Part shown: positions 3,937-64,000 of the stretch, piece by piece
Layout of the letters: each line of letters opens with the position of its first letter
Numbering within the stretch: the first letter of the stretch is position 1
DNA from: Actinocatenispora thailandica
Lineage (GTDB): Bacteria; Actinomycetota; Actinomycetes; Mycobacteriales; Micromonosporaceae
NCBI RefSeq assembly: GCF_016865425.1
Contig: NZ_AP023355.1
Location: forward strand, 3,284,198-3,348,197
Length of the DNA stretch: 64,000 nucleotides
Direction: 5' to 3'
The notes under the pieces: generated by a model
What the model was told of the DNA's origin: nothing
Databases searched by the model: none
Seen by the model: only the letters and a program-made list of their open reading frames with translations
Position numbers and translations under genes: made by a program

Positions 3937-4025
3937 CCGACCTTCCTACCAACCGGCGCCCGGCCGACCACGGACACCCAGCACGCCGCGCCGATCGGGC
4001 CGACCGGCATACTGGGCGTAGGGAC

Positions 4026-4220
4026 GTCTCAGCCGGCAGCGTCTCAGCCGGCAGCGTCTCAGCCGGCAGCGTCTCAGCCGGCAGCGTCTCAGCCGGCAGC
4101 GTCTCAGCCGGCAGCGTCTCAGCCGGCAGCGTCTCAGCCGGCAGCGTCTCAGCCGGCAGCGTCTCAGCCGGCAGCGTCTCAGCCGGCAGCGTCTCAGCCG
4201 GCAGCGTCTCAGCCGGCAGC
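4026..4220. repeat. 13 perfect copies of a 15-bp tandem repeat overlapping a gene 3' end
   Basis: The unit GTCTCAGCCGGCAGC is repeated 13 times without a mismatch (195 bp). On the minus strand the unit reads GCTGCCGGCTGAGAC, which is the last codons and TGA stop of the reductase gene ending at 4209 plus three bases. The copy at 4206-4220 contains the real gene end, and the other twelve lie downstream of it. Because 15 is a multiple of three, every frame without a stop in the unit stays open, which creates long false reading frames on both strands. Confidence 0.95.
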
Positions 4221-5078
4221 GAGGATCTGCCGGCCGACCTCGACCGTGGCCGCGGCGCGCTCGGCACCGAGCGCCCGGACGATCGGGCCGGCGATCGCGT
4301 CCAGTTCCAGCGTCCGGCCGGAGCGACGGTCCTTCAGCATCGACGACTGCATCGTCGGCGGCAGCGCGGCCAGCCGCGCCACGATCCGGTCCGGCTCGAT
4401 GCGCACCCCGGCGAGGCCGGCCGCGGCGGCGGTCTCGTCGACCAGCGCCCGGAGCCGGTCGGGGTACTGGTCGCGCGCCGGGCCGATCGGCGCGTCGGTG
4501 GCGGTGGTCAGCAGCGCGAGCGGGGCGAGGAAGGCCATCTTGCGCCACAGCACCGTCGCCTCGTCGGGCTGGGTGCTGACGGCGAGGCCGGCCGCGCCGA
4601 ACAGCTCGGCCGCCGCGACACCGGCCGGGGTGTCGTCCGCGACGACGAGGTCGGCCATCGTCGTCAGCTGCTCGACCACGCCCGCGCGGTGCCGGGTCGC
4701 CTCGATCGCGATGCTCGCCGGCACCACCGAGGCCTCCGGGTACGCGGCGCGCAGCAGCGCGGGGTGGTCGATCCCGTTGAGCAGCGGAACGATCGTCGCG
4801 GCACCGAGCGCCGGGGCCGGCACCCGGGCGAGCGCCGGCAGCAGGTCGGTGGCCTTGACCGCGACGATCAGCAGGTCGACCGGCGCCGTCAGCCACGGCC
4901 GGGCCACCGGCGCGGTCACCGTCTCGCCGTCCGGTGCGGTCAGGTGCAGCCCGCGCAGGGTGATCTCGGCGGCGGTGCGTTCGGTGGCGAGCACGCTCAC
5001 CTGGTGGCCCGCGGCACCGAGCCGCGCGGCCAGCACGCCTCCGACGCCGCCCGGTCCGAGCACGCCGATCCTCGTCAT
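4209..5078 (-). CDS. panE: 2-dehydropantoate 2-reductase family protein (ApbA/PanE-like)
   Basis: This 289-residue NADP-dependent reductase has the Rossmann motif GPGGVGG at residues 8-14, the strand VDLLIVAVKATD, the conserved VLWRKMAFLAPLALLTT segment (family catalytic lysine), and the C-terminal TLELDAIAG motif that contacts the substrate. Family members reduce ketopantoate to pantoate for pantothenate and CoA synthesis, but many actinobacterial paralogues act on other 2-keto acids. The start ATG at 5078 is preceded by a purine-rich GGGAGTAGGGG. It is divergent from an HxlR regulator, which suggests induction by that regulator and a role in detoxification or catabolism rather than housekeeping CoA supply. 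The 3' end is embedded in the 15-bp repeat array. Confidence 0.85.
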   Translation of the reverse strand: MTRIGVLGPGGVGGVLAARLGAAGHQVSVLATERTAAEITLRGLHLTAPDGETVTAPVARPWLTAPVDLLIVAVKATDLLPALARVPAPALGAATIVPLLNGIDHPALLRAAYPEASVVPASIAIEATRHRAGVVEQLTTMADLVVADDTPAGVAAAELFGAAGLAVSTQPDEATVLWRKMAFLAPLALLTTATDAPIGPARDQYPDRLRALVDETAAAAGLAGVRIEPDRIVARLAALPPTMQSSMLKDRRSGRTLELDAIAGPIVRALGAERAAATVEVGRQILAAG

Positions 5079-6738: not shown

Positions 6739-7580
6739 CAGCCCTTGATCCCTCCCTGGAACCGGAACCCGTACCGCCGGTTGACGATCAGGTACGCCAC
6801 CACCACCGGCACCGAGTACAGCAGCGAGAACGTGGAGATCAGCGCGAAGTTCGGCTGACCGCCCTCGTCGTAGAAGGTGTACATGATCACCGCCGCCGGC
6901 TGCTTGGCCTGGTCGTGCAGCAGGATGTAGGGCAGCAGGAAGTTGCCCCACACCTGCACGACCGCCCACACCGCGATGGTGGCCAGGCCGGGCCGTACCA
7001 CCGGCGCGACCACGTGCCGCAGGATCTGCAGCGGGCTCGCGCCGAACACCCGTGCCGACTCCTCGTAGCTCTTCGGTACCGAGTCCATGAAGTCCTTGAG
7101 GATGAACATCGCCGAGGGCAGCAGCCCGCCGGTCAGCACCAGGATCAGCGCCAGCCGGTTGTCGATCATGTTGAGCTGGAACAGCATCAGGAAGATCGGC
7201 ACCATCGCCGCGGTGCCCGTCACGATCGAGGACAGCAGCAGGATCGCGTACAGCAGGGCGTCGCGGCCGGGCAGCCGCACCCGGCTCAGCGCGTACGCGG
7301 CGGTGCCGGCGAACACCACCGCGAGCACCGCGGTACCGCCGGCGAGGACCAGCGAGTTGCCGATGGAGCGCAGCGCGAACGGGTTGTCGAACAGCACCCG
7401 GAAGTTGTGCAGGGTGAAGCTCGGCGCGGTGATCTGGTACGCCGGGGTACGGGAGAACGGCGTGAGCACCAACCACAGCAGCGGCAGCGCGAAGAACACC
7501 AGCATCAGCCCGGCGAACAGGTACAGCCCGATGCGCGACAGCGCGTGCCGCACCAGCGCGTCGGCGAGGATGCGCCTCAT
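6738..7580 (-). CDS. Carbohydrate ABC transporter permease (MalG type)
   Basis: This 280-residue inner membrane protein has six predicted segments, starting at about residue 18 with a Phe/Leu-rich helix. The cytoplasmic EAA loop is ESARVFGASPLQILRHVVAP (about residues 171-190), where it docks on the ATPase. It pairs with the MalF-type permease encoded upstream. The start ATG 7580 has a strong ribosome site (GAAGGAGG, 7 bases upstream), contributed by the short intercistronic element at 7580-7650. The transported sugar cannot be read from sequence. Confidence 0.92.
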   Translation of the reverse strand: MRRILADALVRHALSRIGLYLFAGLMLVFFALPLLWLVLTPFSRTPAYQITAPSFTLHNFRVLFDNPFALRSIGNSLVLAGGTAVLAVVFAGTAAYALSRVRLPGRDALLYAILLLSSIVTGTAAMVPIFLMLFQLNMIDNRLALILVLTGGLLPSAMFILKDFMDSVPKSYEESARVFGASPLQILRHVVAPVVRPGLATIAVWAVVQVWGNFLLPYILLHDQAKQPAAVIMYTFYDEGGQPNFALISTFSLLYSVPVVVAYLIVNRRYGFRFQGGIKG

Positions 7581-7605
7581 CAGCGTGCCTCCTTCGTCGG
7601 GGCGT

Positions 7606-7650
7606 TCACGAGGTACCGAGCGGCGCGGTGGGCGTCGTTGGCTCGCTCAT
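7606..7650 (-). other. 14-codon mini-ORF in intercistronic element between two permeases
   Basis: In the 71-bp gap between the two permease genes an ATG at 7650, one base after the upstream stop, opens a 14-codon frame (MSEPTTPTAPLGTS). The 3' part of the gap closely matches the 77-bp repeat unit at 60.13 kb: GGTACCTCGT, then seven bases, then CCGACGAAGGAGG, then N-ACGC-NN-ATGAG, with identical spacing. Whether the peptide is made is unknown; the clear function of the element is to supply the ribosome site of the next gene. Confidence 0.45.
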
Positions 7651-7651
7651 G

Positions 7652-8608
7652 TCACTGCCCCCGGCGGCGCAGCAGGCGCAGGTAGAACAGCGCGATGACC
7701 AGGTTGATCACCAGCATGATCAGCGAGATCGCCGAGCCGAAACCGAGCTGGCCGCCCTCGATGGACATCCGGTACACGTAGACCGGCAGCGTCTCGGACC
7801 GGTGGTCCGGCCCGCCACCGGTGAGCATGTACGGGGTGAAGTCGTTGAACGTCCACAGTGTGATCAGCAGCGTGTTGGTCAGGATGTGGCCGCGGATGCG
7901 CGGCAGCACCACGTCGCGGAAGGTGCGCAGCGGCCCCGACCCGTACAGCCGGGCGGTCTCCAGGTGCGAGGCCGGCACCGCGTCCAGCGCCGCGGAATAG
8001 AGCAGCATCGAGAAGGCGGTGCCGCGCCAGACGTTGAACACCACGATCGTGGCGAGCGGGTGGTCCAGCGTCCAGGCCGCGCCGGGGGTGTCCAGCAGCG
8101 CGTTGAGGGTGCCGCCGTTGCGGTCCAGCAGCGCCTGCCAGAGGAACACCACCACCGTGCCGGGCAGGATCCAGGACAGCAGCACCAGCCCGTTGACCAG
8201 CATCCGTACCCAGCCGACGGCGCGACGCAGGGTCGCGGCGAGCAGGAAGCCCAGCCCGTTCTGCCCGAGCACCGCGGACAGGCCGACGAACGCCAGGGTC
8301 AGCAGCACCGAGTTGGCGAACCGCGGGTCGGTCAGCGCGTCGGTGTAGTTGCCCAGCCCGACGAACTGCGGTGCCGCCGCGTTGCTGCCCGCAAGGTCGT
8401 ACTTGAGCACCCCGAGATACAGCGTCCACAGCGCGGGGAACACCAGGAACGCGGCGATCAGCGCCAGCGCCGGTACGACGAACAGCACCGCCCGGCCGAC
8501 GCCGAGCCCCGCCACGTCGCCCGGCCCGGTGCGGCCGGTCCGGCGCGGCCGGGAGGCGTCGGCCGCGCCGGTGTCGTCAGTCGGAGCTGACGTGGTCTGC
8601 GCCGACAA
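7652..8608 (-). CDS. Carbohydrate ABC transporter permease (MalF type)
   Basis: This 318-residue membrane protein has a short polar N-terminus, a first helix at about residues 38-58 and six segments overall. The EAA loop reads ETARLYGSGPLRTFRDVVLP and is followed by TLWTFNDFTPYMLTGGGP, which is typical of MalF/UgpA permeases. The longest frame starts at TTG 8608 and overlaps the end of the binding-protein gene by 32 bases. A slightly later start is possible because the first 35 residues are not conserved-looking. It forms the channel with the following permease. Confidence 0.9.
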   Translation of the reverse strand: MSAQTTSAPTDDTGAADASRPRRTGRTGPGDVAGLGVGRAVLFVVPALALIAAFLVFPALWTLYLGVLKYDLAGSNAAAPQFVGLGNYTDALTDPRFANSVLLTLAFVGLSAVLGQNGLGFLLAATLRRAVGWVRMLVNGLVLLSWILPGTVVVFLWQALLDRNGGTLNALLDTPGAAWTLDHPLATIVVFNVWRGTAFSMLLYSAALDAVPASHLETARLYGSGPLRTFRDVVLPRIRGHILTNTLLITLWTFNDFTPYMLTGGGPDHRSETLPVYVYRMSIEGGQLGFGSAISLIMLVINLVIALFYLRLLRRRGQ

Positions 8609-10019
8609 GCTTCACCACACCCTGTTGGTACCGACTGGCGATCTGGTCGATCGGTTTGCCCGCGGCGGCCTGCCCGCTCGCCTCCTCCAGCAACGCGCCG
8701 ACCGAGGCGTAGTGCTCCTCCGACGGCCGGAACCGGGTGATCGGCAGCACCTTGTCGGCGATGAACGACAGTGCCGGGTCCTTCTGCAGGATCTCGCTGT
8801 TGACCTGCTTGTTCGCCGTGATCTGCACGGTGTCGCCGAGCTGCGCCTTGATCTGGGTCGGCGAGCGCATGAAGGTGAGCAGATCCCATGCCTGCTGCGG
8901 GTACTTGGTGTTCGGGTTGATGGTGTAGCCACCGCCGCCCGACATCGACACGAAGTCCTGGCCGCCCACCCCGGCGCCCGGCTTCTCGGCCGGGATCAGC
9001 GCGTACCCGACGGTGGAGTTGCGGTCGGCCATCGCGGTGGCGTTGCAGATCGACTTGTCCGGGCACACGATCGAGCGCCACAGGTAGTCGCTCTCCCCGA
9101 TGATGCCGAGCTTGCCCTTCGAGAACTCGCTGAACGACTCGTCCCGGCCGTTCGGGTCCTGCTGCAGCTTCGGGTCGCCGAGCTTGTCGGTGACGTACAG
9201 GCTGCGGTAGAAGCTCAGCACGTCCCGGATCGCCTTGGTGTCGCCCTGGTACTTGCCGGTCTTGGTGTCGTAGATCTGCTGCCCGGCACCGGCCAGCAGC
9301 GGCAGGAACCCCTGCATCGTGGTCGCCTCGCCCATCGGGGTGCCGGCGTCGATCTGGATCGGCGTCACCCCGGACAGCTTCGCAAGCTTGCGGCCGGCGG
9401 CGATGATGTCGGCCCAGCTGGTCGGCTGCCAGTTCGCCGGCAGGCCGGCCTTGGCGAACAGCTTCTTGTTGTAGAACAGCACCCGGCCGTCCACGCCGTT
9501 GGGCACGCCGTAGTACTTGCCGTTCATCGACACGTTCTGCTGCACCGACTTGTCGACCTGCTGCCAGCCCGGCCAGCTGTCGACCTTGCTGCCGACCACC
9601 TTCTCCAGCGGCTCGACGTACCCGGCCTTGGCGTACCGGCTGATCGAGTCGCCGCCGATGATGTAGATGTCCGGGCCGCCGTCGGCCTTGAGCGACAGCT
9701 CCAGCTTCTCGCCGTACTTGGCGTCGTCGATGCCGTTCTGCTGGTACTTCACGGTGACGTCGCGGCCCTTGGCCCTCTCCGCCTTCTCGAACGCGGGGAT
9801 CAGCGTCTTGGAGATCCAGGTGGCTTCCTGCGCGTTCTTGCCGCCCACGATGGCGTTGGTGGAGATCGTCAGCGTGGCGTGCTTGGCGTGGGCGTTGCGC
9901 TGCGGGTCGCCGCTGCCGCTGTTGTGCTTGGCGCTGACGCAGCCGGCCGCGGTCAGGCCGACGGTGACCAGTACGGCCAGCGCCGCCGCCGATCGCGCTG
10001 CGATGGGTCGAGAACGCAT
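8577..10019 (-). CDS. Carbohydrate ABC transporter substrate-binding lipoprotein
   Basis: This 480-residue family 1 extracellular solute-binding protein has a basic start (MRSRP), a hydrophobic helix and a lipobox-like LTAAGC with Cys27 as the lipid anchor. The mature part has the hallmarks of MalE-like proteins: a TISTNAI strand, Asp/Tyr-rich ligand segments (GGPDIYIIGGDSISRYAKAGY) and TPMGEATTMQGFLPLLAGAG. It captures a sugar or oligosaccharide outside the membrane for the two permeases. The ATG at 10019 is chosen over upstream frame extension because it starts the signal peptide and has GGAAGGGG just upstream. It is the first gene of the operon. Confidence 0.92.
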   Translation of the reverse strand: MRSRPIAARSAAALAVLVTVGLTAAGCVSAKHNSGSGDPQRNAHAKHATLTISTNAIVGGKNAQEATWISKTLIPAFEKAERAKGRDVTVKYQQNGIDDAKYGEKLELSLKADGGPDIYIIGGDSISRYAKAGYVEPLEKVVGSKVDSWPGWQQVDKSVQQNVSMNGKYYGVPNGVDGRVLFYNKKLFAKAGLPANWQPTSWADIIAAGRKLAKLSGVTPIQIDAGTPMGEATTMQGFLPLLAGAGQQIYDTKTGKYQGDTKAIRDVLSFYRSLYVTDKLGDPKLQQDPNGRDESFSEFSKGKLGIIGESDYLWRSIVCPDKSICNATAMADRNSTVGYALIPAEKPGAGVGGQDFVSMSGGGGYTINPNTKYPQQAWDLLTFMRSPTQIKAQLGDTVQITANKQVNSEILQKDPALSFIADKVLPITRFRPSEEHYASVGALLEEASGQAAAGKPIDQIASRYQQGVVKLVGADHVSSD

Positions 10020-34531: not shown

Positions 34532-35100
34532 TCGACCAGCCCGGCCCGCAGCGCCAGCGCGACGGCCTGGGTCCGGCGGCGGGCACCGAGCTTGTCGTAG
34601 AGCCGCCGCACGTGCGTCTTGACCGTGTCGGCGCCGATGCACAGCTGTTCGGCGATCTCCTCGTTGGTGGCGCCGTCACACAGCGCGTGCAGCACCTGTT
34701 GTTCCCGCCCGGTCAGCCGGATCGGTGGCCGCTGCGGGCGCCGCGGCGCCACCCGCAGCGCGCCGGTCACCGCGCCGGCGACCGCGGCGAGCAGCAGGTC
34801 GCCGTCGGCGCCGACGTCCACCACGATCACCGCGGTGTGCGGCGAGCGACGCGGGCCGAGCACCGTGATGGGATCCCGGGCGAACCGGTAGTCGACGAGC
34901 ACCACGTCGGTGTGCTGTCGGGTGTAGCAGGTCAGGGCCTGGCGCGGCGTGGTGGCCAGCCTTACCAGGTGGCCGTTGCCGGTGGCGACGAGGCGTTCGG
35001 CGAGCAGGCGGGCAGCCGCGCCGGCCGGTACGCAGGCAAGTACGGTGCGGGTCGGACCCGGCGGGGAGTCAGGTCTGGCCGGGAGCGTGGCAACGCTCAT
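34528..35100 (-). CDS. LuxR-family regulator with degenerate receiver-like domain
   Basis: This 190-residue protein ends in a clear LuxR helix-turn-helix: LTGREQQVLHALCDGATNEEIAEQLCIGADTVKTHVRRLYDKLGA (about residues 126-170). The N-terminal 115 residues have a receiver-like beta/alpha pattern with DVVLVDYRF, but the acidic pocket is not obvious, so phosphorylation is doubtful. ATG 35100 follows GAAGGGA. It is the first gene of a two-gene unit. Confidence 0.85.
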   Translation of the reverse strand: MSVATLPARPDSPPGPTRTVLACVPAGAAARLLAERLVATGNGHLVRLATTPRQALTCYTRQHTDVVLVDYRFARDPITVLGPRRSPHTAVIVVDVGADGDLLLAAVAGAVTGALRVAPRRPQRPPIRLTGREQQVLHALCDGATNEEIAEQLCIGADTVKTHVRRLYDKLGARRRTQAVALALRAGLVE

Positions 35101-55374: not shown

Positions 55375-58300
55375 TCAGGTGGAGTAGGCGGCCAGTTCCA
55401 GGACCCGGCTGTAGCCGTGATCGTTGGTGTCGGTGATCGACAGCCGCAGCGCGGTGGTGCGCACGGTCGCGAACGTCGACTCGACGTGGCCGGCGGTGTT
55501 GCCCCGCACGCTGGCCACGGTGCGCCAGCGCGCACCGTCGGCGACCTGCACGTCGTAGTCGCGCAGCCCGAACCGGCTGGCCGGATACCGTGCACTGTCC
55601 AGTGTGTACACCACGACCCGGTGCAACGCCACCGGATGCGACCAGCGCGCGGTCAGCGTGTCCGGGAACTGCCTGCTCGTCCCGTCGTTCCAACCGCCGA
55701 CGCCGTTGTGCCAGTACGCCGAGTCGGTGACGCCGTCGTTGGTGTAGGAGGCGGCCGACCCGTTGTGGTCGCTGGACGACTCCATCGTCGCCAGGCGCAC
55801 CCAGTCGTCGGTCTGGGCCAGCGGCACCGCGGTCGTGGTACCGCCGGCCGACAGCCGCAGCGTTCCGGCCTTCGCGCCCGGATCGGTACGGGTCGCCGTC
55901 ACCCGCACCGTGACCGTCTCCCGACCGGCGATGCGGACCCGCCGCCGGGTGACCCGGGCGGTGAACCCGTCGGTGACGCTGACCCGGGGTACGACGGTGG
56001 CCGCATGCGTGCCGAGATTGTGCAGCCGGAAGTCGGCGGTGATCGGCTCGTCGCCGAGCACCGGGACCTCGGTGCGCGGGCCGTTGATCGCCAGCTGCAC
56101 CGGGCCGGGGCGCGGCGCCGTGCTCCTGCTGGTGGCCGTCAGCGTCCACTCGCCCGAACCGACCCGCCAGCCGTCGCCGTCCCGGCGGGCACCCCGGGGC
56201 GGGCGTACCGCGGTGACCCCCGGCGGTGCCACCAGCAGCGCCGTGGTGCCCACCGGCACCGTCGCGGTGAGCCGGAACTCGTGGCCGCGCCGGGACCACT
56301 CGGCGCCCGCCGGGCCGTACGGGGTGTGGTACCGCACGTGCGCCGAGGTGAGGTCGCCGACCGGTACCGGCGCGATCAGCAGGTCGTGGTAGCCCACGCT
56401 GCCGCCTGCCGCGGCGAGGCCACCGACCCGGGTGTGCAACCACTCCTCGATCGCGCCGAGCATCCAGTGGTTCTGCGAGCCGTACGCGGTGGGCCCGTCC
56501 CAGTACTCGGTGAGCGAGGTGGCGCCGCACACCAGCTGGTAGCCGTAGCTCGGATCGCCGGTGGTGGCGAGAACGTCGGCCACCACGTCGTCCCGGCCAC
56601 CGGCCGCCAGCGCCCGGAACACCGCCGGCAACGCGATCTCGCCGACCGTCAGGTGGTTGCCGAAGGCCCGGATCTGGCCGATCAGGTGGTCGAGCACCGC
56701 GGCGCGCTCGGCGGCCGGGACCACCCCGGCGTCCAGCGCGAAGGCATCCGCCGCCTGGGTGCCGTTGGCGTAGCGGTGCCCGTCGCGATACCTGGTGTCG
56801 AACGCGGCGGCGATCCGGTCCGCCAGCCGGCCGTAGCGGGCCGCGTCGTCCTTCTCGCCGAGCGCCGTCGCCACCTCGGCGAGGCCACGCGCGGCACGCA
56901 GGTACCCGTAGCTGGCCGCGACGCCGGTCGGCGTGTTCTGACCCAGCTCGCCCCAGTCGCCCAGCCCGTAGTCGAGCAGGTCGCCCGATGCCCGGCCGGA
57001 CAGGTAGTCCAGGTAGCGCCGCATCGCCGGGTAGTTGTCCGACAGCACCCGATCGTCGCCGTAGCTGCGCCAGGTGGCGAGCGCGGCCAGGATGATCGCG
57101 CTGCCCCAGTTCGGCTCGTCGTGGCTGCCGCCGGAGAAGTGCGCGTACTGCGGGGCGATGTCCGGGACCAGCCCGGTGTCCTCCTGCGCCTCCCGCACGG
57201 TGCGCAGGAACTCGGCGAACCAGGCGGCGATGTCGTAGTTGCGGTTCAGCGTGGCGAAGTTGAGGTGCGTCTCCTCCAGCCAGCCGAGCTTCTCCCGGTC
57301 CGGGCAGTCGGTCGGCACGCTGAACATGTTGCCCTGCACCGAACGGTCGATGATCCGGTGCACCCCGTCGTACAGGTCGCTGGAGCTGCCGAACTCGCCG
57401 GCCGGCTCGTTGTCGGTCCGCAACACGATCCCGCGCAGCATCGAGCGGTCCGGTTCCGCCGGCAGCCCGGTCACCTGGAGGTAGCGCATCCCGTGGTAGC
57501 AGAACTGCGGATGCCACACCTCGGTGCCGTGCCCGGCCAGCGTGTAGTGGTCCACGATCGGCGGTGACGTGGCCCCACCGGCGATCATCGTGCCCTGGTC
57601 GACCAACCCGTCGGGTCCGAGCCGCTCCCCCGGCAGGATCGTCACCTCGGTACCGGCCGGGCCGGCGACCCGCAGCTCCTCCCAGCCGGCGATGTTCACG
57701 CCCAGGTCGAACACGTGGGTCCCCGGCTTCGGCTGGGTGATCGCCACCGCCGCCACGGTGTCGACCGCCCGGATCGGCGGGCACCGGCGCGCGGTGAGCG
57801 CGGTGTCCGCGGCCTGCGGACCGGTGATCACCGCCGCACGCCAGCCGGACAGGTCGGCGCCCGGACGCTGCCAGCCGGCCGGCTCGCGCCGCGCGTCGTG
57901 GTCCTCCCCGCCGTACCAGGTGGCGAACGTGGTCGGGCCGAGCGTGGTCCGCCAGCGGGTGTCGGTGCCGATCGTCTCGCCGTCGATCTCCAGCTGGGCG
58001 AGCAGCTTCGGCGGCCCCTGCACCCCGACGTACTTGCGGTACCGGTCGGGCGTGTCCGGCACGTTGAACGTGCCGTTGCCCAGCCGTACCGCGAGGGTGT
58101 TGGCGCCGTCCCGGATCATCCCGGTGACGTCGTGGCAGGCGTAGACGACGCGGGCGGCATAGTCGGTGTTCGGCGGTTCCAGCACCGCGTCGGTGACCGG
58201 CTGACCGTTCAGGGTGGCGTGGTAGATCCCCACGCCGGTGAGGTACAGCCGGGCCCGGCGCACCGTGCCGGCCCGGAACTGCCTGGCCAGCAGCGGAAGC

Positions 58301-58803
58301 GGCGTGTCGGTGGGAACCGGCAGCCAGTCCGGGTGAGTGATCCAGCGTGCGGTCCAGTCCTCGGCCGACAGCAGCCCCAGCTCGAAGCACGCGGCGTCGC
58401 TCCAGTCACCGACCCGGCCCGCCTCGTCCCACACCCGCACCTGCCAGCAGACCCGGTCCCGGGAGTGCAGTGTGCTGCCGCGGTAGCCGACCTGGGTGCT
58501 GTCGGCGGACTCGACGCGCCCGGAGTCCCACAGGTCCGGTGCGGACAGTCCGGCCTCCGTCGACGCCGCGCGGACCTGGTAGCCGGTCTGGCGCCGGTCG
58601 GTACCGTCGCCGGCCAGCCACCAGGACAACCGCGGCGCGGTGTCGTCGATGCCGAGCGGATCGGCGAGGCCGTCGACCCGCAGCCGGTACGGTCGCAGCG
58701 GTGCTCCGGCCGGCCCCGCGGTCGCCGGGCCCGGCGGTACCACACCGAGCGCGGCCGAACCGGAGCCCGCGGCAAGGGCCGCCAGTGCGGTGCGTCGCTT
58801 CAT
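55375..58803 (-). CDS. Exported alpha-L-rhamnosidase (GH78) with C-terminal carbohydrate-binding domain
   Basis: This 1142-residue GH78 enzyme starts with a basic KRR and Ala-rich segment ending in ATAG, which looks like a Sec or Tat signal, so it acts outside the cell. Domain order: Fn3-like (about 35-150), jelly rolls, catalytic barrel with DCPDREKLGWLEETHLN (about residues 500-516), barrel end near TSLTEYWDGP, a beta domain with TVRVTATRTDPGAKAGTL (about 890-990), and a C-terminal F5/8-like discoidin domain (about 1005-1142, YTNDGVTDSAYWHNGVGGW). ATG 58803 overlaps the MFS stop by ATGA. It is the last gene of the rhamnoside operon. Confidence 0.93.
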   Translation of the reverse strand: MKRRTALAALAAGSGSAALGVVPPGPATAGPAGAPLRPYRLRVDGLADPLGIDDTAPRLSWWLAGDGTDRRQTGYQVRAASTEAGLSAPDLWDSGRVESADSTQVGYRGSTLHSRDRVCWQVRVWDEAGRVGDWSDAACFELGLLSAEDWTARWITHPDWLPVPTDTPLPLLARQFRAGTVRRARLYLTGVGIYHATLNGQPVTDAVLEPPNTDYAARVVYACHDVTGMIRDGANTLAVRLGNGTFNVPDTPDRYRKYVGVQGPPKLLAQLEIDGETIGTDTRWRTTLGPTTFATWYGGEDHDARREPAGWQRPGADLSGWRAAVITGPQAADTALTARRCPPIRAVDTVAAVAITQPKPGTHVFDLGVNIAGWEELRVAGPAGTEVTILPGERLGPDGLVDQGTMIAGGATSPPIVDHYTLAGHGTEVWHPQFCYHGMRYLQVTGLPAEPDRSMLRGIVLRTDNEPAGEFGSSSDLYDGVHRIIDRSVQGNMFSVPTDCPDREKLGWLEETHLNFATLNRNYDIAAWFAEFLRTVREAQEDTGLVPDIAPQYAHFSGGSHDEPNWGSAIILAALATWRSYGDDRVLSDNYPAMRRYLDYLSGRASGDLLDYGLGDWGELGQNTPTGVAASYGYLRAARGLAEVATALGEKDDAARYGRLADRIAAAFDTRYRDGHRYANGTQAADAFALDAGVVPAAERAAVLDHLIGQIRAFGNHLTVGEIALPAVFRALAAGGRDDVVADVLATTGDPSYGYQLVCGATSLTEYWDGPTAYGSQNHWMLGAIEEWLHTRVGGLAAAGGSVGYHDLLIAPVPVGDLTSAHVRYHTPYGPAGAEWSRRGHEFRLTATVPVGTTALLVAPPGVTAVRPPRGARRDGDGWRVGSGEWTLTATSRSTAPRPGPVQLAINGPRTEVPVLGDEPITADFRLHNLGTHAATVVPRVSVTDGFTARVTRRRVRIAGRETVTVRVTATRTDPGAKAGTLRLSAGGTTTAVPLAQTDDWVRLATMESSSDHNGSAASYTNDGVTDSAYWHNGVGGWNDGTSRQFPDTLTARWSHPVALHRVVVYTLDSARYPASRFGLRDYDVQVADGARWRTVASVRGNTAGHVESTFATVRTTALRLSITDTNDHGYSRVLELAAYST

Positions 58804-60131
58804 GCCGTCCCTCGCTCCGCCACCGGGTCGGTGGCCGACGCCGGTTCGTCCCGCCAGCCGCGGCTCGCCTCGATCTGCTCCAGGGTCTGGCCCGCGGTGC
58901 GCGGGCCGAACACCACCCCGATCAGCCCGCTGACCGCCTGCAGGATCACCAGGATCAGGGCGAGGTAGCGGAAGCCGGCGTTCGCGGTGATCAGCGGAAC
59001 GAAGAAGCTCCAGATCCCCAACCCGATGCGCACCACGGCGAAGGTGAAGCCCTGCGCGGTGGAGCGCAGCACCGTGGGGAACAGCTCGCCGGACCACAGC
59101 TGGAAGAAGTGCTGCTGCCCGAAGCCGGAACCGAACCCGATCAGCAGCACGTACGCCAGCGCCACCGGCAGGTTCAGCGGCAGCACCACGAACAGCCCCA
59201 TTCCGAGGAACTGCAGCACCACGCTGACGCCGAGCAGCACCCGGCGGTTCACCCGGTCGTTGAACGGCATGTACACCACCAGGGTGCCGATCACCGTCAG
59301 CCCGAAGCTCACGCACTGCAGGCCGACGCTCGCCGCCTGGCTCTGCGCGCCGAAGGTGCTCAGCAGGTACGGGAAGTAGAAGCCGTTGGTGCCGGCGAAC
59401 AGGTTCCACACCCCGTACATGCCGATGCAGAACAGCAGCGCGGTCGTGCCCCGCCGGGTGAACAGCGCGGCGATCCTGGCTCTGCCACCCGCCGCGGCGG
59501 ACCTGCTGGTGGCACGTCGCCAGCGCACCGACTCCGCGACGCCGTGCCGCAGCACCCAGGTGACGATCGCCACGAGTAACAGGTGGATGAACACCAGCCG
59601 CACCCCGAGCATGCCCAGCGACGAGAGCGCGAGCGACAGCAGCAGGGTCACCACCGGGCCCAGGTTCCACAGCACCTGGGCGAGCCCACCGAGCCGGCCG
59701 CGGGTTCGGGCCGGCGCGAGTTCGGTGATCAGCGTCCAGGACGCCGGGACGTCGGCGCCGACCGCGAGACCGGCGAGAATGTAGCCGACGAACAGCATCC
59801 AGGTGTTGACCGCGCAGATGATCCAGAGGATGCCGAACGCGTACAGCAGCAGATCCCAGGTGTAGATCTTCTTGCGCCCGAACCGGTCGCAGATCCAGCC
59901 ACCGATCAGCGCGCCGATCCCGGCCGAGATCGCGTTGGAGCTGAACGCGCCGAGCAGCCCGACCGTGCTGCTGGTCAGCCCGAACTTGTGCGACCACAGG
60001 CTCAGCCCGACCGAGCCGGCCACGATGGACCCGGCGTCGATGTAGCTGGCCATCCCGGCCACCGCCGTCCACTTCCAGTACCGCCGACGCTCGGCGCCGT
60101 CGTCCAGCACCGCGTCCGCTGCCGTACTCAT
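58800..60131 (-). CDS. MFS sugar transporter (SP family)
   Basis: This 443-residue, 12-helix transporter has the family motifs IGGWICDRFGRKKIYT after helix 2 and ELAPARTRGRLGGL after helix 4. GIWSFFVPLITANAGFRY and the late VVFGPRTAGQTLEQIE match sugar porters of the SP group. Placed between two rhamnosidase genes, it likely imports rhamnose or short rhamnosides. ATG 60131 overlaps the stop of the third mini-ORF of the repeat (ATGA) and has the repeat's AAGGAGGAACGC ribosome site. Confidence 0.92.
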   Translation of the reverse strand: MSTAADAVLDDGAERRRYWKWTAVAGMASYIDAGSIVAGSVGLSLWSHKFGLTSSTVGLLGAFSSNAISAGIGALIGGWICDRFGRKKIYTWDLLLYAFGILWIICAVNTWMLFVGYILAGLAVGADVPASWTLITELAPARTRGRLGGLAQVLWNLGPVVTLLLSLALSSLGMLGVRLVFIHLLLVAIVTWVLRHGVAESVRWRRATSRSAAAGGRARIAALFTRRGTTALLFCIGMYGVWNLFAGTNGFYFPYLLSTFGAQSQAASVGLQCVSFGLTVIGTLVVYMPFNDRVNRRVLLGVSVVLQFLGMGLFVVLPLNLPVALAYVLLIGFGSGFGQQHFFQLWSGELFPTVLRSTAQGFTFAVVRIGLGIWSFFVPLITANAGFRYLALILVILQAVSGLIGVVFGPRTAGQTLEQIEASRGWRDEPASATDPVAERGTA

Positions 60132-60208
60132 CGGCGTTCCTCCTTCGTCGGAACACCGACGAGGCACCACACGCAACGCCACCGATTCACTCGCTCACGC
60201 TCACTCAT
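60128..60208 (-). other. Mini-ORF C of the coupled relay (26 codons)
   Basis: ATG 60208 opens a 26-codon frame beginning MSERERVNRWRCVWC and ending KEERR. Its TGA overlaps the MFS start as ATGA. The start overlaps the stop of mini-ORF B. See the repeat entry. Confidence 0.45.
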
Positions 60209-60285
60209 GGGCGTTCCTCCTTCGTCGGAACACCGACGAGGCACCACACGCAACGCCACCGATTCACTCGCTCACGCTCACTCAT
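60205..60285 (-). other. Mini-ORF B of the coupled relay (26 codons)
   Basis: ATG 60285 opens a frame identical to mini-ORF C except for the last residue (Pro). Start and stop overlap those of mini-ORFs A and C by four bases. Confidence 0.45.
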
Positions 60286-60362
60286 GGGCGTTCCTCCTTC
60301 GTCGGAACACCGACGAGGCACCACACCCGATGCCACCGATTCACTCGCTCACGCTCACTCAC
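60282..60362 (-). other. Mini-ORF A of the coupled relay (26 codons)
   Basis: GTG 60362 overlaps the TGA of the GH106-like gene as GTGA and opens a 26-codon frame with HR in place of RC at residues 11-12. Its TGA overlaps the start of mini-ORF B. Confidence 0.45.
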
Positions 60363-63300
60363 TTGCCGCTCCCATCGCAGGGTCGGTCCGTTCCCCGTCC
60401 GGTTGTGCGGGTGGCCGGCCGCGCGGCGCCGAGCAGCCGGACCGGCCCGAACAGACCGGAACGGCGTTGCCCGGCGAACACCCCGGCGGTCGGTGTGGTG
60501 TCGCCCAGATACGGCGCGAGGGTGTTGCGCACGACCAGCTCCAGCCGGTTCGCGCCGGCGTGCAGCCACCGGTCGATCCGCACCCGGTACGGGGAAAGCA
60601 GCAGCTGCCCGACGGCCACGCCGTTCAGCCGGACCTCCACGGTGCCGCGCACCTCGCCGAGATCCAGCCAGGTCGGTTGGTCCGGGTCGAGCCCGGTCAG
60701 GGTCCGGGCGTAGCGCACCGCCCCGGAGTACGAACCGAGGCCGGCGTCGGCCCAGTCACCGAGGTCGATCTCACCGGGCCCGGTCCGGTACTCCACCGGC
60801 CCGGTCAGCGTCGCCCCACCGGCCGTGTCCACGGTGGACACCGCGAGCAGCGCCCGGCTCGCTCCCGGCGTGATCTCGACCTCGCCGTCGAGCACCGGCC
60901 GCTCGGTGCCGTCCAGCCAGACCCGGGCGGCACCGCGCACCGGTACGGTCATCCGCCGGGCGCCGGGCGGCAACCGGCACCGGAACCACTGGGTGCGCGG
61001 CGCGGCCGGCACCGACTCGACGGGGACCACCGGCAGGACCGCGCCGGGCGGCCGTCCGTCCAACCAACCGGCCCCGGGCAGCGGGTGCGGCCGCGGCCAC
61101 AGGCAGCCGGTGCGCGGATCCAGCCACTGCTCCCGACGCACCCGCGGCGCGCCGATCGTCCAGTGCGGCGCAGACACCAGGTCCGCCCGGCCGGCGTCGG
61201 TGTCGATCGTCCCGTCCACCCACACCGCCGCACCGGCCGGGTCGGTGAACTCGACCACCAGCTCGTTCTCGCCGGCGACCAGCCGGTCGGCGACCTCGTA
61301 TGGGCGCACCCGCACCGCACGGTTCTGCGCGTACGGGTCGAAGCCGCCGTGCCGGCCGATCCGCGCACCGTTGAGCCGGATCACCGCGGCGCCCTCGGTA
61401 CCGATCTGCAGCACCGCGCGGCGGATCCGGCCGGGCAGCGTGAAGCGGTGCCCCACCGCCGCCGGCGACCGCGTCGGCACCAGCCACTCCGGCCGGCGCA
61501 ACTGGTCCGGTTCGCGGGTCAGCGCCCACCACAGCCGCACCGCACCGTCCACATCGGACCGCACCTGCACGGTCAGTTCGTGGTGGCCGGCGCGAGCCGG
61601 GATCGGCTGGATGGTGAGGTACCCGTCTCCGGCGGCGGGCAGCACGACGCCGTCGAGCACCAGGCGGCGGGCACCCGGTGCGCCGACCGCGAGGTGCAGC
61701 CCGGTGCGCTGGCCGGTGTCGAGGCGAAAACCGGTGCGCAGCGCCACCCACTGCCCGGCACGCACGTTATCGACGTGCACGAACTCCTCGGGCACGTATC
61801 CCTTCGGGCCGAGCGTCGCGTGGTGGCGCGGATCGTCCGGGATGCCCCGGGACAGCGAGTACACCGCGGCCCGCCAGCCGGCTGCGGCGAGCTGCTCGGC
61901 GGTGTCGCACGGCCCGGCGACCGACCCGTACCGGCCGAACGTGGCGACGACCTGGTCCCAGCCGTCCGGCGGCAACCGTTCCGCGGTCACCTCCGGCCCG
62001 GTCTCCCGGTGTGCCAGCCGCCAGGTCTGCACCGGCGGGTCGGTCCGGCCCGCGGCCAGGTCACCCCACCGGTTGTCCAGCATGGGCTCGACCGTGGCGG
62101 TCCAGCGATTCGGCAACGTGGCGAGCACCCGCCCGGGCTGCGGGCCGGCCGCCGGCGCGGGCGTGCTCGCGCCGAACACCACCACCGCGGCGGGCCCGGA
62201 CCCGAACGGCACCCGTACGGTGGCGCGGTCCCCGGCGACGAGCCGGTCCAGGGTGCTGCGGGTGCCGGCCGTCACGTCCCACAGCTGGGCGCGCCCCCAG
62301 CAGGCCGGTACCGAGAGGGTGGCGACGCGGTCGGCCCCGCACGGCCGGAAGGTGTAGCCGCGGTCGCGCATGGTGCGGGTGTACCGGTCGAAGTCGAAGA
62401 AGCGGTGCACGTCGAAGAACACCCAGTCGCCGTGCATCGGCTGCGCGGTACCGGTCCTCGCGTCGTGCGCGGTCAGCAGCACCAGCCGGGTGTCCCCGGC
62501 GCGCCGCACCAGCGTCGGCACGTCGCAGCGCACCGCCGCCTCCGCGGCGAGCCGACGGGCCAGTGCGGCCACCGGCCGGGTGGCCGATCCCGTGGGCCGC
62601 TGCCCGGACCGGGCGGCGGCGTTCTCGCCGGCGGCGTCCGCGGCGGCCGGGCCAGCCGACCCACCGGCGGGTTCGCCGGCCGGATCGGCAGGGGCCGGAC
62701 AAGCGGGGGCACCGGCGGGTTCGCCGGCCGGCGCCTCGACCGGCGTCCTGGGTGTCTCGATCGTTCCGGCGGCGAGGGCGGCGGCGAACCGGGCCCAGCC
62801 CGGGCCGTTCGCCGGCAGCGCGCCGCGCGGCACGGTACCGACGCACGCGACCCGGCCGCCGCCGGCGGCCAGCTCGGCGAGCCGGCCGGCGGTGTCGTCG
62901 GTCAGCCACCCGCAGCCGGGCAGCAGCACCGTCCGGTACGTCTCGGTCGCGAGCCGCAGCACGCCGCCGGCGACCGTCCCGCCGGCGACGGCCGCATCGT
63001 CGACGACCTCGTGGTCCACCCCGGCGGCGGCCAGCGCACCCGGTACCTCGCGCAGCCAGGACGCCGATCCGTTCAACTGCAGGTACGCGTCCTGCGCGGC
63101 GCGCGCCGCCGGCAGCGCCCGGCCGTCGACGGTCAGCGCCGCCTGCACGGTGGCGGTGGGATGCAGCACCGCGACGTCGCACTCGTGGGTACCGGTGGAC
63201 AGCAGCTCGCACAGCCGGGACACCAGCCGGGCGAACGCCGGGTACTGCGGCCAGTACGGCTGCCGCCAGCAGGTGGACGGCGGCGCCCACTCCCACCAGC

Positions 63301-64000
63301 CGGCCCTGGTCGCGTAGTAGACCGCGTGCGGGTCGTAGAGGGTGACGCCGGCCCGCAGCCACGGCAGCAGCCAGTCGAAGGTCTCCTCCAGCGTGCCGCC
63401 CCAGCCGCTGGAGTGGAACCCCTCCAGCCAGGTTTGGCTCCCGCCGTGCAGGTGCGACAGTCCACTGTGGATCTTCGGGTCGCCCCAGTGGTCGCTGCCC
63501 GGCGCACCGTACCGGCCGCCCAGCCGCGGGTAGTCCGCGTACAGCTCGGTCGAGCCGATCGGCTCGCCGGCCCGCGCCGGGTGCTGCTGGTCGTACCCGC
63601 AGGTCAGCCCGTGCCGCCGGTGCCAGTCCCGGAGCGGGACGAAGAACGCCTGGTCGGCCAGCTCCGCGCGGGTGCGCTGGTAGTCGTACCGGATCCGGGC
63701 GTGCTCGTCGCCGGCCCCGCCGAACAGGGCGGCGAGCCGGACCCCGGTCAGCCGGTAGCCGCGGCGCCGGGCGAACTCGGCGGCGAACCGCGCCGACCAG
63801 GTCGGCATCGCGGGCAGCTCGTCCTGGAAGGTGCCGACGATCACGTCGCCGAAGTACGCCCCGGCGTGTCGCTCGAACTCGCCGTGCACCCGGTCCAGCA
63901 GCGCGGCGCAGGCAGCCGGCTCGCAGTAGTCGAAACCGCGCCGCACCGCGTGGTACAGGGTCAGCGTCGCCTCGGTGCCCGCACCCGGCGGGGCGCCCGC
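60359..64000 (-). CDS. GH106-like glycoside hydrolase (probable alpha-L-rhamnosidase), 5' end outside window
   Basis: At least 1213 residues are visible and the frame runs off the right edge, so the start is missing. The visible part matches large GH106-type enzymes: YCEPAACAALLDRVHGEFERH, VIVGTFQDELPAMPTW (acidic active-site region), then HRRHGLTCGYDQQHP, DHWGDPKIHSGLSHLHGG and ETFDWLLPWLRAGVTLYDPHA. A Pro/Ala/Gly-rich insert follows near bases 62600-62740. The C-terminus has two jelly-roll beta domains (VRLNGVAVGQLLLSPYRVRI) as in this family. It probably removes rhamnose from complex glycosides such as pectic side chains. It is the most upstream visible gene of the operon leading through the mini-ORFs to the MFS and GH78 genes. 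Confidence 0.8.
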   Translation of the reverse strand, partial: AGAPPGAGTEATLTLYHAVRRGFDYCEPAACAALLDRVHGEFERHAGAYFGDVIVGTFQDELPAMPTWSARFAAEFARRRGYRLTGVRLAALFGGAGDEHARIRYDYQRTRAELADQAFFVPLRDWHRRHGLTCGYDQQHPARAGEPIGSTELYADYPRLGGRYGAPGSDHWGDPKIHSGLSHLHGGSQTWLEGFHSSGWGGTLEETFDWLLPWLRAGVTLYDPHAVYYATRAGWWEWAPPSTCWRQPYWPQYPAFARLVSRLCELLSTGTHECDVAVLHPTATVQAALTVDGRALPAARAAQDAYLQLNGSASWLREVPGALAAAGVDHEVVDDAAVAGGTVAGGVLRLATETYRTVLLPGCGWLTDDTAGRLAELAAGGGRVACVGTVPRGALPANGPGWARFAAALAAGTIETPRTPVEAPAGEPAGAPACPAPADPAGEPAGGSAGPAAADAAGENAAARSGQRPTGSATRPVAALARRLAAEAAVRCDVPTLVRRAGDTRLVLLTAHDARTGTAQPMHGDWVFFDVHRFFDFDRYTRTMRDRGYTFRPCGADRVATLSVPACWGRAQLWDVTAGTRSTLDRLVAGDRATVRVPFGSGPAAVVVFGASTPAPAAGPQPGRVLATLPNRWTATVEPMLDNRWGDLAAGRTDPPVQTWRLAHRETGPEVTAERLPPDGWDQVVATFGRYGSVAGPCDTAEQLAAAGWRAAVYSLSRGIPDDPRHHATLGPKGYVPEEFVHVDNVRAGQWVALRTGFRLDTGQRTGLHLAVGAPGARRLVLDGVVLPAAGDGYLTIQPIPARAGHHELTVQVRSDVDGAVRLWWALTREPDQLRRPEWLVPTRSPAAVGHRFTLPGRIRRAVLQIGTEGAAVIRLNGARIGRHGGFDPYAQNRAVRVRPYEVADRLVAGENELVVEFTDPAGAAVWVDGTIDTDAGRADLVSAPHWTIGAPRVRREQWLDPRTGCLWPRPHPLPGAGWLDGRPPGAVLPVVPVESVPAAPRTQWFRCRLPPGARRMTVPVRGAARVWLDGTERPVLDGEVEITPGASRALLAVSTVDTAGGATLTGPVEYRTGPGEIDLGDWADAGLGSYSGAVRYARTLTGLDPDQPTWLDLGEVRGTVEVRLNGVAVGQLLLSPYRVRIDRWLHAGANRLELVVRNTLAPYLGDTTPTAGVFAGQRRSGLFGPVRLLGAARPATRTTGRGTDRPCDGSGK

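Follow-up and report, generated by a model that had tools for sequence, protein, structure and literature searches.

A dispersed repeat at start codons, with a relay of overlapping mini-ORFs and a covarying hairpin, in Actinocatenispora and other actinomycetes

Between a gene for a protein resembling glycoside hydrolase family 106 (GH106) and a gene for a major facilitator superfamily (MFS) sugar transporter, a 64,000-nucleotide stretch of the Actinocatenispora thailandica genome (contig NZ_AP023355.1, positions 3,284,198 to 3,348,197; hereafter the window) carries three copies of a 77-bp unit on the minus strand, each holding a mini-ORF (a short open reading frame) joined to its neighbours by a four-base stop/start overlap. 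The unit belongs to a dispersed repeat family and is not peculiar to one operon. Comparison of its copies and modelling of their folds lead us to regard it as probably an element similar to the mycobacterial interspersed repetitive units (MIRUs), which would target start codons and keep the host gene expressible through translational coupling gated by a hairpin.

The array in the window is regular. Tandem Repeats Finder gives a period of 77, 3.1 copies and 97% matches at 60126-60361, and a 25-base pattern taken from the unit (up to three mismatches allowed) occurs three times in the window and in none of 100 shuffles, so chance can be excluded for the window repeat. Mini-ORFs A (60282..60362), B (60205..60285) and C (60128..60208), all on the minus strand, each consist of 26 codons and a stop, with GTG as the start of A, and translate as VSERERVNRWHRVWCLVGVPTKEERP, MSERERVNRWRCVWCLVGVPTKEERP and MSERERVNRWRCVWCLVGVPTKEERR respectively. 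The stop of the GH106-like gene (60359..63946, minus strand) overlaps the start of A as GTGA, while A and B, B and C, and finally C and the MFS gene (58800..60131, minus strand) overlap as ATGA; every unit has AAGGAGG a few bases 5' of the next start. The three units, the 26-codon frames and the four-base overlaps had been described in an initial annotation made from the sequence, and all were borne out by the repeat finder and by reading of the frames.

A DNA search placed the unit at 30 sites in the window's own genome. A covariance model, R1, was built from 41 Actinocatenispora units, and at E<=0.01 it gave 79, 78, 26 and 69 matches in the window's genome (G000), A. comari (G001), A. rupis (G002) and a fourth Actinocatenispora genome (G003) respectively, among the best 150 of 8,203-9,549 candidates scored per genome; the counts may therefore omit some copies and include false matches among the weakest. 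At E<=1e-4 the same model matched 226 of 354 genomes of the host's own family, in 24 of 44 genera. With R2, built from 23 units of other genera of the family, 105 of 397 genomes sampled from the order matched at E<=1e-5 (26 of 86 genera) and 292 did not; among ten named genomes searched at this threshold there were matches in Micromonospora sp. CPCC 205371 (1), Virgisporangium aurantiacum (20), Kribbella capetownensis (26) and, within the genus, A. comari (50) and A. rupis (20), and none in the genomes of Planotetraspora, Streptosporangium, Actinomadura, Nonomuraea and Microtetraspora, a small negative control. An order-wide model, R3, matched 71 of 401 genomes sampled from family f8 at E<=1e-3 (12 of 31 genera), most strongly in genera g53, g132 and g135. 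The impression of near-confinement to the genus given by the DNA search (6 of 61 genomes, 3 of 56 genera) was thus overturned by the covariance models. The 79 genome-wide matches go beyond the initial annotation, as do the covarying 14-bp hairpin discussed below and a degenerate single copy in the window itself (7577..7651, minus strand), which stands before a 280-codon frame with its relay broken.

Carriage by plasmids or phages was considered and rejected, as we found no blastn match of the window array to plasmids, nor of one Micromonospora-type array to plasmids or phages. Eleven element loci had no Rfam match at E<=1, and window positions 59900-60600 had only three weak ones (E 3.3-8), far under the gathering score; as no match reached that score, membership of a known RNA family was rejected.

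The architecture of the element was followed in 66 arrays containing 105 units (G000 contributed 37 arrays, G003 18, G001 seven and G002 four), which are part of all matches, were picked mostly by score and share ancestry, so that the counts are not of independent events. In 61 of the 66 the frames joined by NTGA chain unbroken into one that is 60 or more codons long, and in 58 they do so under a stricter rule. A mini-ORF closes with ATGA or GTGA, in which the following unit or the gene has its start. Mini-ORF length is 26 or 27 codons in 82 of 95 cases, the first start is NTGA in 62 arrays, and 40 arrays are a single copy. Single units and tandem arrays have identical ends, and tandem steps are mostly 77 or 80 bp, that is, 81 or 84 minus 4, with frame and overlap retained. 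Since a long downstream frame is a weak criterion in GC-rich DNA, Pfam was used in addition: 19 of 20 tested proteins starting at the element's last ATG have a match (E<=0.001), with identities that include ClpP, peptide deformylase, a NuoJ-like subunit and LacI- and LuxR-type regulators. Outside the genus, among best-scoring matches of models that themselves include the ATGAG end, the chain reaches a long frame in 25 of 26 loci of the family (the exception is L159) and in 21 of 21 loci from other families of the order; it does so at all seven loci from the named genomes, one of which is A. rupis. A random scatter without bias for coding junctions, which the initial annotation had named as an outcome that would refute it, was not found.

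Some Actinocatenispora units form a second subfamily with another 3' half (GGTCGGAGCGCAGCGGAGAGCGGGC-like), which resembles the Micromonospora type and retains frame and overlap; they lie at L038 3040-3205, L043 3022-3106 and L061 1958-2041. At L062 2331-3495 (G001:C8), next to an assembly gap, the chain 27-27-92-27-95 intersperses the units with two longer frames, of 92 and 95 codons, which have similar beginnings.

Orthologous sites without the element reveal where it sits. Ten empty orthologues were found at six loci. One of these is L044, between a Fer4 gene and a gene for a NuoJ-like subunit: G003 reads GGGAGGTGCGGC-ATGAGTTCGCAACTG, or GGGAGGTGCGGC-ATGAGT at the junction itself, and in G000 an unchanged left flank is followed by the unit, as an insert of 80 bp, and by ATGAGTGCGCAGCTG, with ATGAGT at the junction; G001 and G002 are empty too. 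L034 has four copies in G000 and none in the other three Actinocatenispora genomes. For L030 the count is two in G000 and one in G001, while G003 has a single divergent copy (both junctions GTGA) and G002 has none. At L055 A. comari has a three-copy array before a LuxR-family gene, while the orthologue in the window has none at its ATGA start (about 35097-35100, minus strand); L061, an upstream copy of L055, has no counterpart in G003. The site of the window array is empty in A. rupis, and in A. comari it holds a 63-nt frame that looks by eye like a remnant, in which the profile search reported no element. Each empty site reads ATGA where the gene starts, and after insertion the preceding flank remains 5' of the first mini-ORF, so that the host gene's native ribosome site comes to stand before the first mini-ORF and the element provides, on its sequence, a new Shine-Dalgarno for the gene. 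These comparisons indicate that the element inserts at NTGA start codons and leaves NTGA at both ends, and because of the empty sites and the dispersal it is most likely mobile, presumably in a non-autonomous way.

Copy number also differs between species, in 12 of 17 orthologous groups and over a range of 0 to 7, where a group comprises at least two species among the fetched stretches, copies are counted as profile hits, and three groups come from orthologue searches for chosen arrays. The largest array, L052 2958-3492 in G003, has seven copies at 78-bp spacing and a G000 orthologue with one. Together with the unbroken chains, this variation backs the translational relay proposed in the initial annotation, and the same near-identical tandem units and changing copy number are what would be expected of a neutral minisatellite that arose by slippage and is neither mobile nor functional. 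That interpretation seems to us hardly tenable, as the unit occupies unrelated loci, with conserved frame and overlap and with the covariation described next, and is contradicted by the empty sites.

The feature that suggests a gate is a hairpin. RNAalifold and a count of pairs show a 14-bp stem in which the 3' strand has the next start codon (ATGAG) at its end; part of the Shine-Dalgarno lies in the loop. In unit C (60127..60163, minus strand) the stem pairs CTCGTCGGTGTTCC with GGAACGCCGATGAG around the loop GACGAAGGA and contains the MFS start codon, and the AAGGAGG that the element gives to the MFS gene (60139..60145, minus strand) places five of its bases in the loop and the remaining two in the stem; by inspection, 13 of the 14 pairs form in unit B (60204..60240, minus strand), which has one C-C mismatch, and 13 of 14 in unit A (60281..60317, minus strand). 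The stem was assessed on an alignment of 41 of the 84 listed Actinocatenispora units, picked by hand, from which truncated and type-B units were excluded. Changes on both sides of a pair occur in 39 cells, against 11.5 +/- 2.5 in shuffles, none of 500 of which reaches 39, and the proportion of paired cells drops from 93.9% to 38-59% when the partner is slid by 1-3 columns. Outside the genus, 23 of the 26 family loci (L142, L159 and L163 excluded) show 24 both-side cells against 8.2 in shuffles, and 41 order-wide matches show 102 against 31.4 in an alignment that was fitted to the structure. Seven of eight single units that were folded also beat their shuffles (z -2.15 to -4.84).

Pairing of the start codon itself was tabulated for 88 of 89 rows (L228 was omitted for its incorrect match end), some of which are related and so do not represent independent events. 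In these predicted folds the start codon is fully paired in 81 of 88; the first base of ATG starts pairs with U in 69 of 76 and is unpaired in seven, and for GTG starts its partner is C in 10 of 12 and U in two. For element-supplied starts (n=60) the predicted probability that the start codon is unpaired has a median of 0.0016 and a mean of 0.18; at the first starts, which follow the native site, the median is 0.46 and the mean 0.47 (n=63; p about 1e-9).

What is conserved in the frame appears to be its nucleotides and its length, and not clearly its peptide. Variability at the three codon positions is 0.224, 0.243 and 0.283 over codons 2-12 of the 41 Actinocatenispora units and 0.136, 0.192 and 0.109 over codons 2-13 of 21 units from other genera, so third positions do not clearly vary more than the first two; ratios of the dN/dS type on close pairs are 0.64 and 1.16, and neither test gives a clear signal of purifying selection on the peptide. 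Actinocatenispora and Micromonospora-type units translate the block GTGCCTCAT in different frames, although total length is still a multiple of three, and by this change of frame the C-terminal half CLVGVPTKEER of the former becomes VPHAGAERSEVAA in the latter. Peptides A, B and C have no NCBIfam match, and A and C no Pfam match. The idea that the mini-ORFs specify a peptide with a function or a regulatory role, such as a leader rich in Trp, Cys and Arg, can appeal to a frame that is open in most copies and to the Trp and Cys of the window peptides; the lack of any codon-position signature or family match, and identical 3' nucleotides read in differing frames between genera, make it very improbable, and we have rejected it.

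In proposing how such an element could persist at the starts of genes, we envisage that ribosomes loaded at the native site would translate the first mini-ORF, and that the ribosome terminating at the base of the hairpin would unfold it, permitting either re-initiation or the entry of a new 30S subunit at the freed AUG. Without the passage of a ribosome the start of the gene would be largely closed. In this way the element could land on gene starts without silencing them, with the original initiation signal kept one or more steps upstream. A start that is predicted to be sequestered by structure, with the upstream frame running through that structure, fits coupling by RNA unfolding, and by analogy the relay and the unfolding agree with the RNA-unfolding and re-initiation models described in the part of a 2025 review available to us (PMC12548453).

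Several observations weigh against this account. Five of the 66 arrays fail the chain test, two being without a recognisable first start, two having broken frames (the window's degenerate copy among them) and one having a short downstream frame. The seven repeats of L052, counted among the 61, form no relay: because of their 78-bp spacing they read as one fused 177-codon frame, in which the inner junctions are gone and the final junction with the gene is retained. The long downstream frame means little alone, given that 70% of random NTGA sites have one. Nor is overlap with a real upstream gene universal; 38 of the 66 arrays have a frame of at least 100 codons that stops exactly at their first NTGA, compared with 27% of 1,214 random NTGA sites, and only four of ten such upstream frames have a Pfam match. 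A true stop/start overlap is therefore the site of many insertions but not of all, and the target that they share is an NTGA start codon. With regard to the hairpin, seven of the 88 rows have a start codon that lies partly or entirely beyond the predicted stem, and the type-B unit L038 gives a fold no better than those of its shuffled versions (z 0.08). The Shine-Dalgarno region is unpaired to a similar degree at element-supplied and first starts (0.40 against 0.45, p 0.18), which may leave some direct initiation possible. Finally, the hairpin can also be a signal for mobility.

On that last alternative the hairpin would serve primarily as a mobility signal, recognised in the form of single-stranded DNA or RNA, its covariation would reflect the spread of copies with intact arms, and coupling would be a by-product of the ATGA target. 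In its favour, copies differ in matched arms in the manner of subfamilies, the 5' arm CTCAT is complementary to ATGAG, and the ends are the same in single and tandem units. However, pairing is strictest at the start codon and mismatches are tolerated in the middle of the stem (among the 41 units, three of 205 cells are unpaired in the five basal pairs, against 22 of 82 at two middle pairs), and G-U wobbles are common opposite AUG: a change from A-U to G-U opposite its U, seen in 19 of the 41 units, fits an RNA rather than a DNA helix. Moreover, at L143, L150, L156, L160 and L161, in five genomes of the family, the element is inserted before a GTG-start gene that reads, by a motif, like gpsA, and the hairpin complement is C in four of them and U in one, which looks like change in place and makes this a site at which compensatory change could be followed. 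We consider a mobility signal possible, if unlikely, as the first role of the hairpin.

The initial annotation had gone beyond the relay to suggest that the array could tune transporter output, and a related proposal is that arrays are copy-number rheostats, kept by selection because they set how strongly the gene that follows is expressed (in the window, the transporter). The variation in copy number is in keeping with this, as is the report that longer upstream arrays of MIRU-VNTR (variable number tandem repeat) type correlate with higher fpg1 mRNA in M. tuberculosis (PMC2734929, as excerpted). Yet the same unit precedes genes as unrelated as those for ClpP, peptide deformylase, the NuoJ-like subunit and LacI- and LuxR-type regulators, among others, often as a single copy, and at the window locus itself A. 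comari has only what looks like a shortened remnant and A. rupis nothing. A rheostat is thus improbable, and tuning of a transporter is not supported as the purpose of the element. Of the initial annotation, the observation is confirmed and the relay is supported; its tuning and its tiny functional peptides are not.

The closest known analogue is the MIRU. In the portions of the literature available to us, MIRUs appear to be mobile, to insert at start codons and to carry an inner ORF coupled to its neighbour at -4 nt (PMC12548453, citing Supply et al. 1997); their range is given as many mycobacteria (PMC12548453) or as M. leprae and the M. tuberculosis complex only (PMC4213456); three 77-bp MIRUs lie between senX3 and regX3 in H37Rv (PMC4213456), and one class I MIRU forms a 77-nt 5' untranslated region (PMC4128351). 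The present element shares the short and dispersed character, single or in tandem, within the 40-100 bp range of PMC2734929 (in excerpt), a 77-bp class, the NTGA coupling (61 of 66 arrays), the start-codon insertion (the ten empty orthologues) and the copy number that varies between related genomes, in our case between species. In these respects, judged against published descriptions, the present family works like a MIRU. MIRUs are reported to lack dyad symmetry, and the present element departs from that description with its 14-bp stem; it differs from them further in its occurrence in other actinobacterial groups and in the covariation of its start-codon hairpin.

Hairpin-gated coupling itself has precedents in phage MS2 coat/lysis, f1 VII/IX and E. 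coli rpmI-rplT, in which, according to the part of PMC12548453 available, a structure over the downstream initiation region is opened by upstream translation. Those are fixed gene pairs, while here a gate of this modelled kind would travel as a repeat to many unrelated genes. The enterobacterial repeats RU-1, RU-2 and RU-3 are likewise small and mobile and were checked for open reading frames, but they are described as intergenic, 103-168 bp long and similar to miniature inverted-repeat transposable elements, and the excerpt of PMC2759123 mentions neither start-codon insertion nor a stop/start relay. Among the titles and beginnings of abstracts listed for open-licence PubMed Central papers (20 of 1,638 in one search), we found no description of the element outside mycobacteria. 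MIRUs are thus a known kind, and it is the hairpin gate and the distribution that appear new.

Of the genes around the window array, those for the MFS transporter and the GH78 enzyme have clear Pfam support. The GH106-like frame is open to the window end and its GH106 Pfam match is below the curated cut-off. The transporter matches PF07690 (1.5e-32) and PF00083 (2e-31), and its stop overlaps, again as ATGA (58800-58803), the start of a GH78 alpha-L-rhamnosidase gene (55375..58803, minus strand; PF17389, 7.4e-84). Elsewhere in the window, 4025-4221 is a perfect 15-bp tandem repeat of 13.1 copies (CGTCTCAGCCGGCAG).

These observations extend the MIRU lifestyle, with its seat at the start codon and its coupling to genes, beyond mycobacteria, and to dozens of copies in some soil actinomycete genomes. 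What this repeat conserves is a frame length and a putative RNA gate, and not a protein. For annotation, shifted starts and missed mini-ORFs are to be expected at genes that bear the element. The mechanism of coupling is not firmly established according to the review cited above (PMC12548453, in part), and natural orthologous sites with no, one, two, four and seven copies are suited to testing RNA unfolding against re-initiation. Whether the finding reaches further is a matter on which we are evenly divided: it may be that actinomycetes harbour a widespread and undescribed class of start-codon-targeting mobile elements with their own translation gate, of which MIRUs would be the mycobacterial branch or a parallel invention. 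Insertion of such an element would swap direct initiation for a relay of mini-ORFs, each closed by a hairpin that contains the following start, and the element would survive in operons by making its own passage a condition of host-gene expression.

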